Positions 1,188-15,348 of a stretch of DNA of 22,858 nt are shown in pieces. A program made the translations under genes and the position numbers. Numbering within the stretch: the first letter of the stretch is position 1; each line of letters opens with the position of its first letter. Below the pieces are notes generated by a model, which was given only the letters and a program-made list of their open reading frames with translations, ran no database searches and was not told the DNA's origin. Where the stretch lies: the IMG/VR virus record IMGVR_UViG_3300006789_000186, positions 1 through 22,858 of that record; one strand, written 5' to 3'. The DNA comes from a virus.

Positions 1188-1571
1188 CTAAAAGGGGATG
1201 TCAGAGTTGTCGTGTGCGAGACGCTGAGGTGGTGGTGCTCCGTTTGCTGGCTGTGCCTTGGACATGAACTCGACACGGTCGGCTACGATTTCTGTACGCC
1301 TACGCTCTACGCCGGTCTTGTCTGTGTACGTGCGTGTGCGAAGCTTACCGTCGACAGCTACCTTGGAGCCCTTCGCAAGAAACTGAGCACAGCTTGCTGC
1401 TTGGCCGCCGAAGACTACGACGTTGTGCCACTCGGTATGGTCGACCCACTCGTCTTGCTTCTTGACGCGCTCGTTAGTTGCGACGCTGAGGTTACATACC
1501 TTGGTGCCGCTGTTGGTTGGTCGTAGCTCAGGTGCTACTCCCAGGTTTCCAGTGATGATTACCTTGTTCAT
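1188..1571 (-). CDS. ssb: Single-stranded DNA-binding protein
   Basis: The 127-residue product has the bacterial-type SSB OB-fold. It begins MNKVIITGNLGVAPELR, continues through NLSVATNER and the EWHNVVVFG strand, then GSKVAVDGKLRTRTYTD, and ends in the acidic hydrophobic tip DNSDIPF that recruits partner proteins in this family. It coats single-stranded DNA during replication and recombination, normally as a tetramer. The linker between the OB domain and the tail is short (about 20 residues), as in many phage versions. The ATG at 1571 overlaps the stop of the upstream gene (TAATG), so the two are probably translationally coupled. It lies within the leftward operon. Confidence 0.96.
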   Translation of the reverse strand: MNKVIITGNLGVAPELRPTNSGTKVCNLSVATNERVKKQDEWVDHTEWHNVVVFGGQAASCAQFLAKGSKVAVDGKLRTRTYTDKTGVERRRTEIVADRVEFMSKAQPANGAPPPQRLAHDNSDIPF

Positions 1572-2896: not shown

Positions 2897-3183
2897 CCAT
2901 CCTCATAGAAGCTGTAGGAGTTGTAGTCAGGTACTTCTTTCGGTTCATACGATGCAACCCGTGTGGAGGGGTGGCATTCGCTCGTTGCGCTTATCAAGTT
3001 CAAGGCTCTGATTAGTCCCACCTTCTTTGTGGGTAGCTCGAATACGGATACTACTATATCCATGTCATTGTCGGTTTCTTCTATGAAGGTTTTGGCTGCT
3101 CGTGTAGCCTCTGCTTTGTTGGCGTAGAAGCTTACTGTTGGTCCTTCCCCGTGTTCCCATCGATATACTTGGTATATTTTCAT
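2893..3183 (-). CDS. Hypothetical protein (96 residues)
   Basis: The protein begins MKIYQVYRWEHGEGPTVSFYANKAEATRAAK, a short beta strand then a helix, and ends in a Tyr-rich acidic tail (DYNSYSFYEDG). It looks like a small alpha/beta protein in which the KAEA...AAKTFI helix follows a strand that could take part in a ferredoxin-like fold. No function is known to me. It is coupled to neighbours on both sides by four-base ATGA overlaps. Confidence 0.65.
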   Translation of the reverse strand: MKIYQVYRWEHGEGPTVSFYANKAEATRAAKTFIEETDNDMDIVVSVFELPTKKVGLIRALNLISATSECHPSTRVASYEPKEVPDYNSYSFYEDG

Positions 3184-5411: not shown

Positions 5412-6182
5412 TTACTCTCCAATCATGTTGCCCAAGTCACGGACGGACTTGTTGTGCTCACGAACGGTGGCCTTCTTCAAGTCAACGGGGTTGTCGAGGG
5501 TGTCGAAGTCGATGGGCTCGTCTTCTTCCAGGACAGGCTTCGCACGGAAGTAGAGACCAAAGGAGTTGAAGTTCTCTGTGTCGTACGTCCGCTCAACAAC
5601 TGTGAGGTTGTAGAAGTTGTTGTTGAGGCTGGCCTGCTCGCGGGGCCAGTTGTAGAGGAAGGTCTCACCGGTGAAACTGTTCACACCCTGGTTGCGCCAG
5701 CAGGAGAAGGTTTCAACATGTCTCAGGACACGAGCCAGGCTAAAGCAGAGCTTCAGTTGGTGCTGGGGAGTAGCTTTCTTTCCGAGCCCTACGATGCCTT
5801 GCATAGTACGCTTGACAATGAGGAGCCAGGTGTCGAAGTCAACGTTGATGGCCAAGTGGGTCTCACCGTTGTAAGTTTCTCCCGACGAGAAGAAGTCGTC
5901 GAGGTCAAGACCGTCCGTAAGAGACTGTCTGCGCGTGTACATCAAGCGAGCAGCGTCGAACATCCAAGTACGCTCAGGGTCTTTCTGAACGAGTTGCGGT
6001 CCGTACTGAACGCTGGCACCCTTGACCATGCACTCAACCTTTGCGCGGTTCTCCTCAGTATCGGTGAGGTTGCGCCAAGGCTCGCTGAGCAGGAGCTTAA
6101 TCTTGACTTTCACCTCGTCGCACAGAGCGTTGATTTTCTGTTGAGTTGGTGAGAGCTTACGAGTTTGTTGGTTTGAAGGCAT
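5412..6182 (-). CDS. Unrecognised 256-residue protein, separately transcribed
   Basis: The start is placed at the ATG at 6182 because AAAGGA lies eight bases upstream. An in-frame ATG at 6233 has no such site. The product starts MPSNQQTRKLSPTQQK. It has a helical first half, a middle with DTWLLIVKRTMQGIVGLG and HQLKLCFSLARVLRHVE, a section of strands (NSFTGETFLYNW, then NNFYNLTVVERTYD) and an acidic stretch (VLEEDEPIDFDTLD) near the end. No signal peptide, membrane span or known motif was found. The opposite strand is also open for 277 codons, a known side effect of biased codon use, but lacks any sensible protein character. The gene is flanked by two terminators and a 1.2-kb non-coding region, so it is its own transcription unit. 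The codon use looks strongly selected (CTC, GTG, AAG, GAG), which would suit high expression. Confidence 0.85.
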   Translation of the reverse strand: MPSNQQTRKLSPTQQKINALCDEVKVKIKLLLSEPWRNLTDTEENRAKVECMVKGASVQYGPQLVQKDPERTWMFDAARLMYTRRQSLTDGLDLDDFFSSGETYNGETHLAINVDFDTWLLIVKRTMQGIVGLGKKATPQHQLKLCFSLARVLRHVETFSCWRNQGVNSFTGETFLYNWPREQASLNNNFYNLTVVERTYDTENFNSFGLYFRAKPVLEEDEPIDFDTLDNPVDLKKATVREHNKSVRDLGNMIGE

Positions 6183-6257
6183 TACACTTTCCTTTATGAT
6201 TATTGATGAATTGAGGATGAGAGTCATTCTCACCCTTTTCCCATAGATATTGAGATT

Positions 6258-6299
6258 TCAAAGAAGAAGAAAAAAGAGAATAAGAGAGGAAGGAAGGAT
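6258..6299. other. Purine-rich tract (polypyrimidine on the minus strand)
   Basis: The plus strand is almost entirely A and G here (GAAGAAGAAAAAAGAG then GAGGAAGGAAGGA). On the minus strand it is a CT-rich leader segment 75-115 bases upstream of the 6182 ATG. It could be an unstructured leader, or a binding site for a pyrimidine-tract protein. Confidence 0.5.
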
Positions 6300-6310
6300 G
6301 ATATGAACGA

Positions 6311-6330
6311 TTACATTGGACTGACCTCCT
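6311..6330 (-). promoter_or_regulatory. Candidate start-stop minigene with strong ribosome site
   Basis: On the minus strand a full AGGAGG (6325-6330) is followed after eight bases by ATG TAA (6311-6316), a start codon immediately followed by a stop. It sits about 130 bases upstream of the ATG at 6182, inside the presumed leader of that gene. Start-stop elements can stall ribosomes or drain initiator tRNA, like the lambda bar minigenes, but this could also be a chance ribosome-binding sequence. Confidence 0.4.
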
Positions 6331-6362
6331 GGGGTTAGGTAAGCTAAGAACACGTACAAAAA

Positions 6363-6463
6363 CTACAGGGCACGCTGCTACTCGGCGAACCTGGGCTCTT
6401 GGTTGATGTTCTACTTGTTCCACACACCTGCTGGATCAAGTAGAGCATTCGGCGTGCCCGTAG
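6363..6463. ncRNA. Candidate structured RNA element, strand undecided
   Basis: An outer stem pairs CTAC plus GGGCACGC (6363-6375, one bulged A) with GCGTGCCCGTAG (6452-6463). Inside it a long hairpin pairs TCTACTTG and TCCA (6410-6422) with TGGA and CAAGTAGA (6432-6444), interrupted only by a T-T mismatch. A short AACC/GGTT hairpin occupies 6388-6404. Together they make a three-way junction of about 100 bases. On the minus strand the outer stem is followed at once by TTTTT, which would suit an RNA 3' end or a leader attenuator for the 5412-6182 gene. No known RNA family was recognised. Confidence 0.5.
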
Positions 6464-6537
6464 GCCTGTAGTAGTAGTTAAAAAGTTGGGTATGAAGCAA
6501 ATGCGGACACCGAAAAATACAATAAAGAAGTGTCGCC

Positions 6538-6839
6538 GTCGACCGACCAGGTCGACACCCGAGTCAATCAGCTCAGTTGATTGACAGCGGCCATCGCGCC
6601 CGCAGGCGCGTGTACTTTTTACCACACCGCTCGCGAGCGGGGGCCATTTAGCTTATGATTTTTGGCCTCAAAATCTAAGCTGGGCGAAGCCCATATTACT
6701 GCCCCGCGACGTAAGACCTTACCGGACAGGGCGACAAAGAATAAAAATAAAAAGCCGCCCTGCCGAGCGCGACATTCGCTGAGTGGGTAATCGTGTAGGG
6801 TTTGCACCGCAGCGTTGCACCCCTGCTTTGACCGATTAC
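6538..6839. repeat. Dense hairpin cluster
   Basis: In order: GTCGACC/GGTCGAC (6538-6556); GTCAATCA/TGATTGAC (6563-6585); CGCGCC/GGCGCG with a four-base loop (6595-6610), followed by TTTTT on the plus strand; the perfect palindrome CCGCTCGCGAGCGG (6627-6640); a 12-pair hairpin AGCTTA-GATTTT with AAAATCTAAGCT (6650-6681, one bulge); TGGGC-GAA-GCCCA (6681-6693); CGG-CAGGGCG with CGCCCTGCCG around an A-rich 22-base loop (6724-6765); and GTAATCG/CGATTAC enclosing AGGG/CCCT and TGCA/TGCA (6787-6839). The density is far above that of the coding regions. Confidence 0.7.
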
Positions 6840-6877
6840 ACACCTTGGCCTTCTGGTTGATACCGCCACCGCGTGGA

Positions 6878-6942
6878 TGAAAGCCGGAGGGGAAAAGCCA
6901 AACATGTTTGAGATCCCCCGGCTTTCAGATTCCGCGCGGAAT
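6878..6942. repeat. Nested inverted repeat plus GC palindrome
   Basis: TGAAAGCCGG with GGGG (6878-6892) pairs with CCCCCGGCTTTCA (6915-6927). Its 22-base loop contains the perfect 12-base palindrome CAAACATGTTTG (6899-6910). Directly after the stem lies another perfect palindrome, ATTCCGCGCGGAAT (6929-6942). On the plus strand a GTCGC-GCAA-GCGAC hairpin with a GNRA-type loop follows at 7020-7033. Nested palindromes of this kind fit a cruciform, an RNA fold or a dimeric protein site. Confidence 0.65.
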
Positions 6943-7058
6943 ACATAGACGAATCAATCGATCAGGGATCGAAAGAAGGATCAGCGGAGAGGAGTCGCGG
7001 AGGCTTCCGGAATAAGACTGGTCGCGCAAGCGACGCCGCTTGTTGGTTACCTCAACAT

Positions 7059-7160
7059 CAATCCGCCCACCGGACAATCCGCCAAGCCGACTACGTATCA
7101 ATCCGCCCCCCACGCGGGGAGAGACTCGACATCCGACTAAGCTGTGAATCCGAATCCGCC
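7059..7160. repeat. Short CAATCCGCC direct repeats
   Basis: CAATCCGCC occurs at 7059-7067, 7075-7083 and 7099-7107, and the near copy GAATCCGCC at 7152-7160. All are on the same strand, 16, 24 and 53 bases apart. The arrangement is iteron-like but the spacing is irregular, so a replication role is only a possibility. Confidence 0.5.
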
Positions 7161-7302
7161 ACCCCGCCGTTGGGCGTAGCTAAAGGTAAGTTTCCGGACC
7201 GGACGATGAGAGTGGTAGGGGGGGAGGGTATACCGTTTTGATTGTCGTAACATCCATATTCCGAGGACCCTTTCCCCGACCGAACACATTTCTCAACTAC
7301 CT

Positions 7303-7323
7303 TACCACAGTGGTATTACCACC
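7303..7323. promoter_or_regulatory. Operator-like triple half-site upstream of the 7379 gene
   Basis: TACCAC (7303), its complement GTGGTA (7310) and TACCAC again (7317) are spaced exactly seven bases apart, about 55-75 bases before the ATG at 7379. A further GTGGTA lies at 7212. Ribbon-helix-helix proteins commonly repress their own promoter through short, evenly spaced half-sites, and the downstream gene appears to carry such a domain. The pairing of site and protein is inference. Confidence 0.5.
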
Positions 7324-7378
7324 TTGCCACGAAGGGCGTCTCATGGTACGTTCGCAGTCCAACCCAAAGAGGACCGCT

Positions 7379-7996
7379 ATGCCACGACCTAAATCTTCTG
7401 AGATAAAACTTAACCTCGAGTCTGTTATGCTTGAGCGTTTAGACAAGTTGGTCCCTATGGTGGCCGAATCTGCTGCTGCGAGGGAGTTCGGCATCGAAGT
7501 AGACCGTCGTCTTGTGGCTCGAGTCGCGCTCTTGCGCGGATTAACTGCGATGGAGGCTGCGGTGCCTTCGGAGCCGGCACCTGACACGCCCCGGAGCCCT
7601 GTGGGAGAGGTCGCACCGCCCCCTGTGCTTGCAATTCCGCTGCCTGATGGCGCCCCTGAGGTCTCCACGACAGCCGACTCGGGTTCTGCGTCGCCTGATA
7701 TGGCGGAATTAGGCGAAGATGGCCTCTACGACTTGCCTGAGGGCTGGCACATATGGAGTTCTGGCGAGAGAATCCCTGCGGAGCACGCAGAAATCCACGA
7801 TCACTACGCCTCGGGGGGCTGGAATCGCTACTGGGGCCGCGTAGGAGAGGAAGTCATCGCGTTTTATTGGACGCCAGACCCTGCATTGCAGGACTATCCG
7901 TCCTATAAGGGCGCAGATCGCGGGGGTAAGGAGTTGAATATCCAGAAAACCCCCTATGGTCCGGGGCATATCATCCCACATGGGTGGTCAGCGTGA
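7379..7996 (+). CDS. Putative ribbon-helix-helix protein fused to an unknown C-terminal domain
   Basis: The start is set at the ATG at 7379, with AGAGGA six bases upstream. The longer frame from 7238 has no ribosome site. The 205-residue protein begins MPRPKSSEIKLNLESVMLERL. That strand-helix start, followed by VDRRLVARVALLRGLTAME (about 41-60), is the look of a ribbon-helix-helix DNA-binding domain. Residues 64-115 are a Pro/Ala/Ser/Asp linker. The C-terminal 90 residues are aromatic and Gly-rich (LPEGWHIWSSGERI, then GGWNRYWGRVGEEVIAFYW) and match nothing I know. Its composition looks richer in G and C than the block to its left, a possible sign of transfer. It ends in a GTGA overlap with the next gene. 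Confidence 0.7.
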   Translation: MPRPKSSEIKLNLESVMLERLDKLVPMVAESAAAREFGIEVDRRLVARVALLRGLTAMEAAVPSEPAPDTPRSPVGEVAPPPVLAIPLPDGAPEVSTTADSGSASPDMAELGEDGLYDLPEGWHIWSSGERIPAEHAEIHDHYASGGWNRYWGRVGEEVIAFYWTPDPALQDYPSYKGADRGGKELNIQKTPYGPGHIIPHGWSA

Positions 7997-10092: not shown

Positions 10093-10584
10093 ATGTCCGA
10101 ACATTCTCTTGATGACATTGTTCATTCTATTCAGTCTGCTGTTCTGGCAGCTACCGACATTGCTGAGCGCCACGAACTCGACTCGATAATGAAGCAGGAG
10201 TTCTGGGAACTCAAAGTCGATAACAAGGGGGACCCAGTCAAGGATGACGCGGGTAGAGAGGTGTACACACCCCGTATGGTGACGATGCGCGTACCAACCT
10301 GGCAGGAAGGCAAACTTGTCGATCAGGATATTCCTGTGCCGTTACAGTCTCTTACGACGGGTCAGAGCCTCAGCGTTGACCGTCTCGAAGTTGAGATGTC
10401 AGTTCAGATATCGGGTCTGGAGACGGACAAGTCTAAGGGTAAGTTGATGATACGGCCTGGAGCGAGTTCTTCTTGGTTCCATAAACAAAGCAACACTGCT
10501 AAACTGAAGCTGGTTTTTAAGGGTAGCGAGCCTCCAGAAGGTTATGCAAGAATCGACGACCAGTTAATTAAACTGCTTCCATAG
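10093..10584 (+). CDS. DUF2589-related protein (partner paralogue)
   Basis: The 163-residue protein has a helical start (SLDDIVHSIQSAVLAATDIA), then strands with VPLQSLTTGQSLSVDRLEVEM, and ends LVFKGSEPPEGYARIDDQLIKLL. The order VPL-x-SL-x-SL-x-x-x-x-x-E-x-x followed by PPEG-x-x-x-x-x-D-x-L is shared with the next gene. I recall it from the shorter partner encoded next to DUF2589 genes in bacteria. AGGGAG precedes the ATG. The predicted fold is mostly beta with helical ends. The function of the family is unknown to me. It is co-oriented and spaced nine bases from the DUF2589 gene, so the two products probably form a complex. Confidence 0.72.
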   Translation: MSEHSLDDIVHSIQSAVLAATDIAERHELDSIMKQEFWELKVDNKGDPVKDDAGREVYTPRMVTMRVPTWQEGKLVDQDIPVPLQSLTTGQSLSVDRLEVEMSVQISGLETDKSKGKLMIRPGASSSWFHKQSNTAKLKLVFKGSEPPEGYARIDDQLIKLLP

Positions 10585-10592
10585 GAAATAAA

Positions 10593-11195
10593 ATGCCAGA
10601 CCAACTTGTAAACATGTCATCTCAGTTTGGCGGTCTTCCTATGGACCAGCTTATTGGTGGCCCTCTCAAGGCTGCCTGTAGCGCTCAGACTTTGTTGGCT
10701 AAGGCTTCTGCTGACTTTATCAAGGACGTCGGCCTGGACGACGCTGGTGGCGGCAAGATGAATGCCCGCACAGTGGACTTCAGCTTTAACAAGCCAGTTC
10801 AGGCTCCAGATGGAACAACGACTCTTGAGAAGGTTGACCTGCAGGTTCCCCTACTCGCAATCATCAACACGCCAAGCTTGTCTGTGAAGGAAGCCGAGGT
10901 CCGCTTCACCATGGAAGTGAAGTCCTCTACTTCCAGTAAGACTACTTCAGACACCAAGGCTGAGCTTACAGCGCACGCCAAGTACAATGCCGGACTGTTT
11001 AGTTGCGACGTTACTGTTCACGGCTCTGTGGCTAACCACAGCGAGAATAGTCGTAAGAGTGACAACAGCGCCAAGTACGACGTCAAGGTTGTAGCTCGTG
11101 ATGACGGTCCTCCAGAAGGTCTCATGAAGGTTCTGGACATGTTGAATGACGCAATCGCACCCACTCAGGGTGTACCTGCACCAGCTAAGAAGTAG
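10593..11195 (+). CDS. DUF2589 family protein
   Basis: This 200-residue protein contains the landmarks I know for DUF2589: an early DQLIGGPLKAACSAQTLLA, then ARTVDFSF, VDLQVPLLAIINTPSLSVKE, EVRFTMEVKSS, VTVHGSVANHSENSRKSDNSAKYDV and the closing PPEGLMKVLDMLNDAIAP. It is close to full length for the family. DUF2589 proteins are found in scattered bacteria, often in pairs, without a settled role. Here the gene sits between a basic 61-residue protein and a 797-residue repeat protein in a phage virion-gene area, which hints at a particle-associated or injected role. AGGA lies eight bases before the ATG. There is no signal peptide. Confidence 0.85.
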   Translation: MPDQLVNMSSQFGGLPMDQLIGGPLKAACSAQTLLAKASADFIKDVGLDDAGGGKMNARTVDFSFNKPVQAPDGTTTLEKVDLQVPLLAIINTPSLSVKEAEVRFTMEVKSSTSSKTTSDTKAELTAHAKYNAGLFSCDVTVHGSVANHSENSRKSDNSAKYDVKVVARDDGPPEGLMKVLDMLNDAIAPTQGVPAPAKK

Positions 11196-14388: not shown

Positions 14389-15348
14389 TTAGCTACGAAG
14401 GATTAGTTCGTTCTCGACCATCGCAGTCTTACGCAGGGCTTCCATCATCTCTTCGAACGAGCGTGGGTCTCCGCCTTCTGTACCTGAAGCTGTATCGGGT
14501 CCCATGTTCATGAGCTTAATACCTTCGGGTACGGGCTCTGGTTCGGGTACGACTTCTGGTTCTGGGGTCGGTTCTGGTGCTGGTGGTGGGTAGAGCGCAC
14601 GGGTCATCTTGACCGCGTCTTCTGGTGTGAAGTTCGCTCGTGCAAGCTCGCAGAACTTATCAAAGGCATCATCGTTATCATAGATATCGGATGCTTCTGA
14701 GGTGAGCCATTTCTCGAGGGTGTCGACCTGGTGCTCGGTTTGTGTCTCTTGGAACTTCTCGAGTTGTTGGTTTACCTCTTGGTACTGACGAAGAGCGTTG
14801 TCACGTTCTTTCGCGGCAGTCTCGAGTGCGGTTCCATGAGAGTTTTGAGCTTTCTCGTGTGCTTCTTCGGCTTCACGTCGGAGCGTCTGAAGTGCCGATC
14901 GGTGGGCAATCTTCAGTTCATCAATTTCTCTCTGCTTCGCGACCATAGGGTCGATATCGCCATGTAGCCAACGCTGTACCTTAACTTCCTGCTCCCGAAC
15001 TTCTTTCATAAGCTCTTCGGCGCTACGTCTTTGCTTAGCGAGGTCTTGATACTTGTTCGTGTATCCGCGCTGCCAGTTCTGGTACTTACCTTCGATTCCG
15101 TCCAGCACGGCGCGCCGCATTCCTGGCTCGAGGTTTTGTACCCACTCAGCTTCGTGGAGGGCTTCCATCTCGCCGTTCCAGTCGAACACTGGTGGTACTT
15201 CTACTTCTTCTTCTACTTCAACGGGGGTCGCATCAGATGCTTCCATCGGTTCCGGAGTATCGGCAACGGCCTCGACGCTACTTTCTTGTGCTGCGTCTGT
15301 ATCGGTCGCTACTGCCTCATCTACGGTTTCGTTATCTTCGTTAAGCAT
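14389..15348 (-). CDS. Putative head scaffolding protein
   Basis: The 319-residue protein has the usual scaffold layout. It has an acidic, low-complexity N-terminus (residues 1-55), then a long charged helical, coiled-coil centre (AKQRRSAEELMKEVREQE, later REAEEAHEKAQNSHG), a globular patch (TSEASDIYDNDDAFDKFCEL) and a Pro/Glu linker (PPPAPEPTPEPEVVPEPEP) before a short C-terminal helix that could contact the capsid. Scaffolds guide capsid protein assembly and leave the head. It is the last gene of the portal transcript. In most phages the capsid gene would follow directly, but here the cement gene converges instead. GGGGG lies 11 bases before the ATG. Confidence 0.78.
   Translation of the reverse strand: MLNEDNETVDEAVATDTDAAQESSVEAVADTPEPMEASDATPVEVEEEVEVPPVFDWNGEMEALHEAEWVQNLEPGMRRAVLDGIEGKYQNWQRGYTNKYQDLAKQRRSAEELMKEVREQEVKVQRWLHGDIDPMVAKQREIDELKIAHRSALQTLRREAEEAHEKAQNSHGTALETAAKERDNALRQYQEVNQQLEKFQETQTEHQVDTLEKWLTSEASDIYDNDDAFDKFCELARANFTPEDAVKMTRALYPPPAPEPTPEPEVVPEPEPVPEGIKLMNMGPDTASGTEGGDPRSFEEMMEALRKTAMVENELILRS

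Follow-up and report, generated by a model that had tools for sequence, protein, structure and literature searches.

What does a 1.2-kb interval between two phage genes contain, if it contains no gene? The window, by which we mean the whole 22,858-base stretch that was analyzed, makes up an entire virus record and is likely a fragment of a genome; several related records are 70 to 74 kb. A first-pass annotation had claimed that positions 6183 to 7378 hold no credible gene and could not decide between a large structured RNA and a hairpin-rich origin. The interval lies between the following two genes:

5412 to 6182, minus strand: leftward flanking gene (ORF), 256 amino acids, first of the leftward unit
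7379 to 7996, plus strand: rightward flanking gene, 205 amino acids, with 22 viral relatives

The leftward protein has relatives detectable by tblastn (53% in L005, 42% in L002, and 24% in L003/L004), and searches of Pfam and PHROG placed it in no known family (0 matches). The N-terminal part of the rightward protein may resemble a ribbon-helix-helix regulator, a possibility inferred from sequence pattern only; its AlphaFold model is of low confidence (pLDDT 60). Genes downstream in the window include those for portal and terminase.

The claim that the interval lacks a gene held. Its longest ORFs encode 88 to 93 amino acids and lie on the minus strand. In translated comparisons with relatives, which readily recovered both flanking genes as controls, strong matches were confined to conserved DNA near the promoter and the C-rich stretch described below. 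Matches near 7250 to 7378 occurred in all three plus-strand frames as well as on the minus strand, which argues for conservation of DNA rather than of a protein. A coding gene was ruled out on the basis of the short internal ORFs and the lack of frame-specific translated conservation; we found no conserved protein frame.

Hairpin richness, the other main claim of the first-pass annotation, also held, with small corrections: against its at least ten stems of 6 to 13 pairs, we found six perfect stems (≥6 bp, loops of 3 to 12), or 5.0/kb versus 2.3/kb in the rest of the window, and 19 helices in the minimum-energy fold, which allows bulges and longer loops. Of four perfect palindromes of 12 to 14 bases that had been claimed, three were found (6627-6640, 6899-6910, and 6929-6942). 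A GNRA loop placed on the plus strand at 7020-7033 is present at 7021-7034, and the UNCG-type loop claimed for the minus strand at 6595-6610 is present. The sequence is more stable than its dinucleotide shuffles, with sliding-window z values of -4.9 at 6401-6600 and -4.1 at 6501-6700, both on the plus strand; elsewhere, z lies mostly between -3 and +2. The structured portion spans approximately 6363 to 7050, and positions 7045 to 7378 are unstructured C-rich and promoter DNA.

We gathered relatives by scans with both flanking proteins and with conserved DNA patterns; they share the same gene arrangement, and the alignment of the rightward protein comprises 22 viral loci. In relatives, a structured noncoding region occupies the same place, with a leftward gene on one side and the same rightward gene on the other. 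These relatives are few. Large forms of 0.5 to 1 kb are found in 7 phages (the window, L002, L003, L004, L005, L009, and L021, the upstream portion of record L013), and compact forms of ∼160 to 190 nt are found in 9 phages. The compact forms have three unrelated architectures:

S1: L031, L032, L033, and L035
S2: L034, L036, L037, and L045
Third compact type: L039

Three further loci (L030, L038, and L040) carry other sequence upstream of the rightward gene, which is weakly structured (z of -2.5 at most on the plus strand). Six contigs retrieved with the pattern GATCGAAAGAAGGNTCAG (L015 to L020) gave short matches only and were set aside as chance. Searches by DNA and by the rightward protein yielded no cultured phage relative above chance, and searches of GTDB genomes (prophage or host) with the rightward protein and the promoter dyad yielded no relative; the sole dyad match there, in Chromohalobacter, occurs at about the chance rate.

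Combining single-sequence z values, alignment folding, and helix lists, we delineated these parts of the structured region:

6363 to 7050 (ends approximate), plus strand: structured noncoding RNA, large form, ∼0.69 kb
6363 to 6463, plus strand: 5′ stem-loop H1, with outer stem CTACAGGGCACGC/GCGTGCCCGTAG and inner stem TCTACTTG/CAAGTAGA
6466 to 6480, plus strand: conserved segment GTAGTAGTAGT at the start of domain 2, with 11 invariant columns running in the five-sequence alignment A1
6479 to 6621, plus strand: domain 2, closed by helix P2 (6479-6486/6614-6621), with hairpins 6538-6556 and 6563-6585 inside
6650 to 6681, plus strand: hairpin H3, whose loop TGGCnTC is common to L005 and whose stem differs from that of L005 on both sides
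6723 to 6765, plus strand: hairpin with an A-rich loop (GAATAAAAATAAAAAG), helix probability 0.88
6775 to 6988, plus strand: long-range helix P4, TTCGCTGA (6775-6782) with TCAGCGGA (6981-6988), spanning 214 bases and enclosing P4b (6783-6843), hairpin 6869-6939, and P4d (6958-6972)
7021 to 7034, plus strand: GNRA hairpin GTCGC-GCAA-GCGAC, close to the 3′ end of the structured part

H1 has counterparts with different paired sequence in all six other large forms (L002, L003, L004, L005, L009, and L021), and direct reading found comparable A-rich loops in L003, L005, and L009. Helices keep pairing when both of their strands have changed, and this includes some that close over 75 to 215 nt. P2 pairs perfectly in 7 phages, and the sequences that pair differ largely among them, for example, TAAAAAGT/ACTTTTTA in the window, TTAGATTTTGA/TCAAAATCTAA in L009, GCACCGGCTA/TAGCCGGTGC in L003, and AAAAATCC/GGATTTTT in L004. 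Similarly, the P4 pairing of the window is replaced by TTCGGTGA/TCACCGGA in L005 and L009 and by CTCCGCTGA/TCAGCGGGG in L004. One hairpin stem changes from TCACTTC/GAAGTGA in L003 to TCGTTTT/AAAACGA in L004, and its GCGA loop is kept. Among compact forms, both-side changes affect 7 of 51 consensus pairs in S2 and 4 of 51 in S1. We chose the illustrated P2 and P4 helices by eye from small alignments, so that they illustrate pairing and do not test it; the minimum-energy fold of the window favors other partners for parts of both helices, and in the single-sequence fold the right strand of P2 shares bases with an alternative hairpin (6595-6641).

Folding of alignments against column shuffles gave plus-strand z values of -7.0, -5.2, -5.1, -8.8, -2.7, and -6.0 for blocks of the large form, -6.2 for S1, and -11.4 for S2; single compact RNAs reached -4.2 to -8.1 on the same strand. 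Controls from the large-form group gave -1.0 (promoter region) and +0.6 (C-rich stretch). Because a coding control reached -3.3 and the promoter region of the compact group reached -2.9, the shuffle z is imperfectly specific, and a value near -3 is not proof; most RNA blocks lie well past that level. We consider it very likely that the locus holds a conserved structured RNA, a conclusion that leaves its strand and function open.

Of the two possibilities left undecided by the first-pass annotation, the evidence favors RNA, because homologues show compensatory changes, helices are long-range and multi-branched, and GNRA loops are found on one strand. The alternative is a DNA element, either an origin, packaging, or recombination site with extruded hairpins or a small mobile cassette that has inverted repeats at its termini. 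The palindromes and the AATCCGCC repeats downstream of the structured part speak for this reading, as do the inverted repeats at the cassette ends of S types, GTCCCGATCAC...GTGATCGGGAC, and a strand-neutral substitution count that ended in a tie (G-U 14 versus A-C 13). Against it stand the long-range multi-branch helices, GNRA loops on the plus strand only, plus-strand stability, unrelated structures at the same place, and the absence of a GC-skew switch in the region, which was our check for a replication origin. We therefore regard a DNA element as unlikely and return to a structured RNA.

Its strand, called unclear at first, is now partly resolved toward plus. Measured against shuffles, plus folds more stably than minus in 25 of 35 windows (Wilcoxon P = 0.002), and all 8 aligned RNA blocks give a lower z on plus. 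Of 21 distinct tetraloop hairpins of ≥5 bp, GNRA loops account for five on the plus strand and none on the minus strand, a split expected by chance about 1 time in 32. The RNA thus likely lies on the plus strand; this is inferred from stability and GNRA loops, with the substitution count tied and no transcript data available. No plus-strand promoter stands out upstream of the RNA.

The unexpected feature of the locus is exchange. In L035 (S1) and L045 (S2), the left flanks match at 97.4% over 227 bp and the right flanks at 96.5% over 2.3 kb, and between these near-identical flanks lie ∼140 different bases (L035 positions 2967-3105). For L033 (S1) and L037 (S2), identity is 99.3% across the 843 bp that lead to the cassette and 80% past it. 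Covariance models of S1 and S2 each found four records, without overlap and at one place per record; second S2 matches were the opposite strand of the same place. Since each type is present in four separate contigs, a single assembly error cannot explain the swap. Large forms, for their part, are mosaics that trade single domains: at about 7112-7173, L004 carries a hairpin domain of 62 bases that matches L005 at 95% identity, compared with 68 to 89% for the other matching parts, and in L003 and L004, which are ∼90 to 95% identical around it, the left part of domain 2 comprises 33 versus 95 bases, with both P2 strands changed together. RNA-like conserved structure, fixed position, cassette and domain exchange, and single copy where tested are thus shown. 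In the open-access literature, which we searched mostly by titles and abstracts, we found no description of this RNA, nor of RNA cassette exchange at a phage locus.

The DNA around the RNA contains further conserved elements:

6215 to 6234, minus strand: leader hairpin of the leftward gene, GGUGAGA-AUGAC-UCUCAUC, upstream of its ribosome-binding site
7045 to 7165, plus strand: C-rich, G-poor, unstructured stretch with AATCCGCC repeats and no conserved fold (z +0.6)
7218 to 7228, plus strand: conserved G-run between the C-rich stretch and the dyad, seen in alignment A1 and by direct reading of other loci
7302 to 7320, plus strand: dyad TTACCACAGTGGTATTACC, found in relatives and unique in the window (0.08 expected)

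In 13 of 14 loci, the leader hairpin is more stable on the minus than on the plus strand, mostly with G-U on minus where plus has A-C, and it belongs to the leftward leader rather than to the structured RNA. In S types, one arm of this hairpin doubles as the 5′ strand of the helix that closes the RNA. At 6311-6330 on the minus strand, AGGAGGT is followed by ATG-TAA, and L021 has GGAGGT with GTG-TAG at a like place; this may be a start-stop element in the leftward leader, although we hold that only as a possibility.

Within the C-rich stretch, the AATCCGCC direct repeats number four at 7060-7160 on the plus strand, versus 0.7 expected. Similar repeats are present in the large-form group, all on the plus strand, and every large-form relative retains a similar motif, ATCCRCC. 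The 80-nt window with the highest excess of C over G lies at approximately -345 to -290 before the rightward gene in 16 of 16 loci, being weak in L034. Rho loads on C-rich, G-poor, unstructured stretches. Because such a stretch sits 3′ of the RNA, we infer a Rho-dependent end, and 7045 to 7165 is likely a rut-like Rho-dependent terminator; this inference rests on sequence features only, without Rho-dependent 3′-end data. The dyad, whose family form is TTACCnnnRTGGTATTACC, follows the C-rich stretch and precedes the rightward gene, of which it is inferred to be the likely promoter or operator; possibly, it is an operator for the gene's own regulator-like product.

The order of leader hairpin, RNA, C-rich stretch, dyad, and rightward gene suggests a separate plus-strand transcript. 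The main rival, which remains possible, is a cis-acting leader: the RNA would form the 5′ portion of either the rightward or the leftward transcript and control it by attenuation, antitermination like that of HK022 put, or Rho control. In its favor, the RNA always lies directly upstream of the same rightward gene, with the C-rich stretch at a fixed distance, and S-type RNAs lie so close to the leftward gene that a leftward promoter would have little room between them. Only ∼30 to 100 bases separate the leftward start codon from the RNA at S-type loci, so the leftward promoter may lie past the RNA, and the region may double as a leftward 5′ leader. Against it, downstream of the RNA the rightward gene is preceded by a conserved promoter-like dyad of its own, and wholesale replacement of the RNA beside a nearly identical downstream gene (L035/L045) is odd for a fixed job in cis. 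Put itself, a hairpin RNA of ∼65 nt near the start of phage transcription units, acts in cis; the RNAs described here comprise 160 to 1,000 nt and have unrelated alternatives.

Does the RNA belong to a known family? No Rfam family, introns and ribozymes included, matched the window at the gathering score, and a lax-threshold covariance search of the window region and four relatives returned chance-level E values only. Neither tRNA nor tmRNA was found in the 22.9-kb window. A resemblance of the S2 rod to 6S or SRP RNA was also weighed, by analogy only.

GOLLD and ROOL, which assemble into RNA-only particles, are closest in kind (PMC12286853), and membership fails on covariance models and tRNA context. 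An ornate structural RNA that works as they do while belonging to a different family would fit the size, multi-domain build, phage origin, and variable domain set of the large form, which recall GOLLD, itself a large multi-domain phage RNA with a less conserved 5′ region and domain set (PMC12286853). ROOL is likewise a large ornate phage RNA, with an example of ∼0.66 kb (PMC12286853). Both are often near tRNA genes. Here, however, there is no covariance-model match to either and no tRNA nearby; unlike GOLLD, the locus has compact alternatives, and unlike ROOL, it lies in another context and swaps domains and whole cassettes. Replacement by RNAs of ∼160 to 190 nt argues against a required large cage, and we consider this alternative unlikely. 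To our knowledge, no function is known for large phage RNAs of the GOLLD and ROOL kind.

A packaging RNA comparable to phi29 pRNA is less likely still. Phage structured RNAs that keep their structure under sequence drift do exist, and phi29 pRNA is one with drifting sequence. However, portal and terminase lie ∼10 to 14 kb from the RNA region, in another unit, and here the fold itself is replaced between close relatives. Phage-encoded small RNAs offer a looser comparison, being noncoding phage transcripts with suspected host targets; the RNA described here is much larger, domain-built, and replaced as cassettes.

We favor a reading in which the RNA acts in trans. Positions 6363 to about 7050 on the plus strand would make a structured noncoding RNA of ∼0.7 kb, built from exchangeable helical domains, which Rho would probably end in the C-rich stretch, before the rightward gene's own promoter. 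The product would act as a free RNA that most likely binds a component of the host early in infection, with host takeover or counter-defense as its putative role. Because the RNA is swapped out entirely beside a nearly identical gene, a trans-acting RNA seems more plausible than a fixed role in cis. A host or competitor target was chosen, with modest confidence, because arms-race genes typically show such swapping of whole alleles at a fixed locus. Plus-strand transcription, promoter, Rho termination, trans action, and target are all inferred, and the chain as a whole is in our judgment slightly more apt to fail than to hold. A bolder reading, which we raise only as a possibility, is that a fixed phage locus serves as a socket for interchangeable structured RNAs, whether whole architectures of 0.16 to 1 kb or single domains, in an RNA-based arms race with the host or competing phages. 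Near-identical flanks with a swapped RNA amount to a natural allele-swap experiment, and contrasting the hosts or host defenses of phages like L035 with those of phages like L045 could open the function of a large phage RNA to direct testing. Structured RNAs outside Rfam coverage remain in uncultured phages.

Elsewhere in the window, the leftward unit includes a single-strand DNA-binding protein (1188-1571, minus strand), and two adjoining DUF2589 proteins (10093-11195, plus strand) are likely paralogues. The gene at 14389-15348 on the minus strand has a weak PHROG match (E value of 0.0073) to the Srd anti-sigma factor, and at 14501-14700 there is a lone stable minus-strand fold inside a gene (z -6.0).
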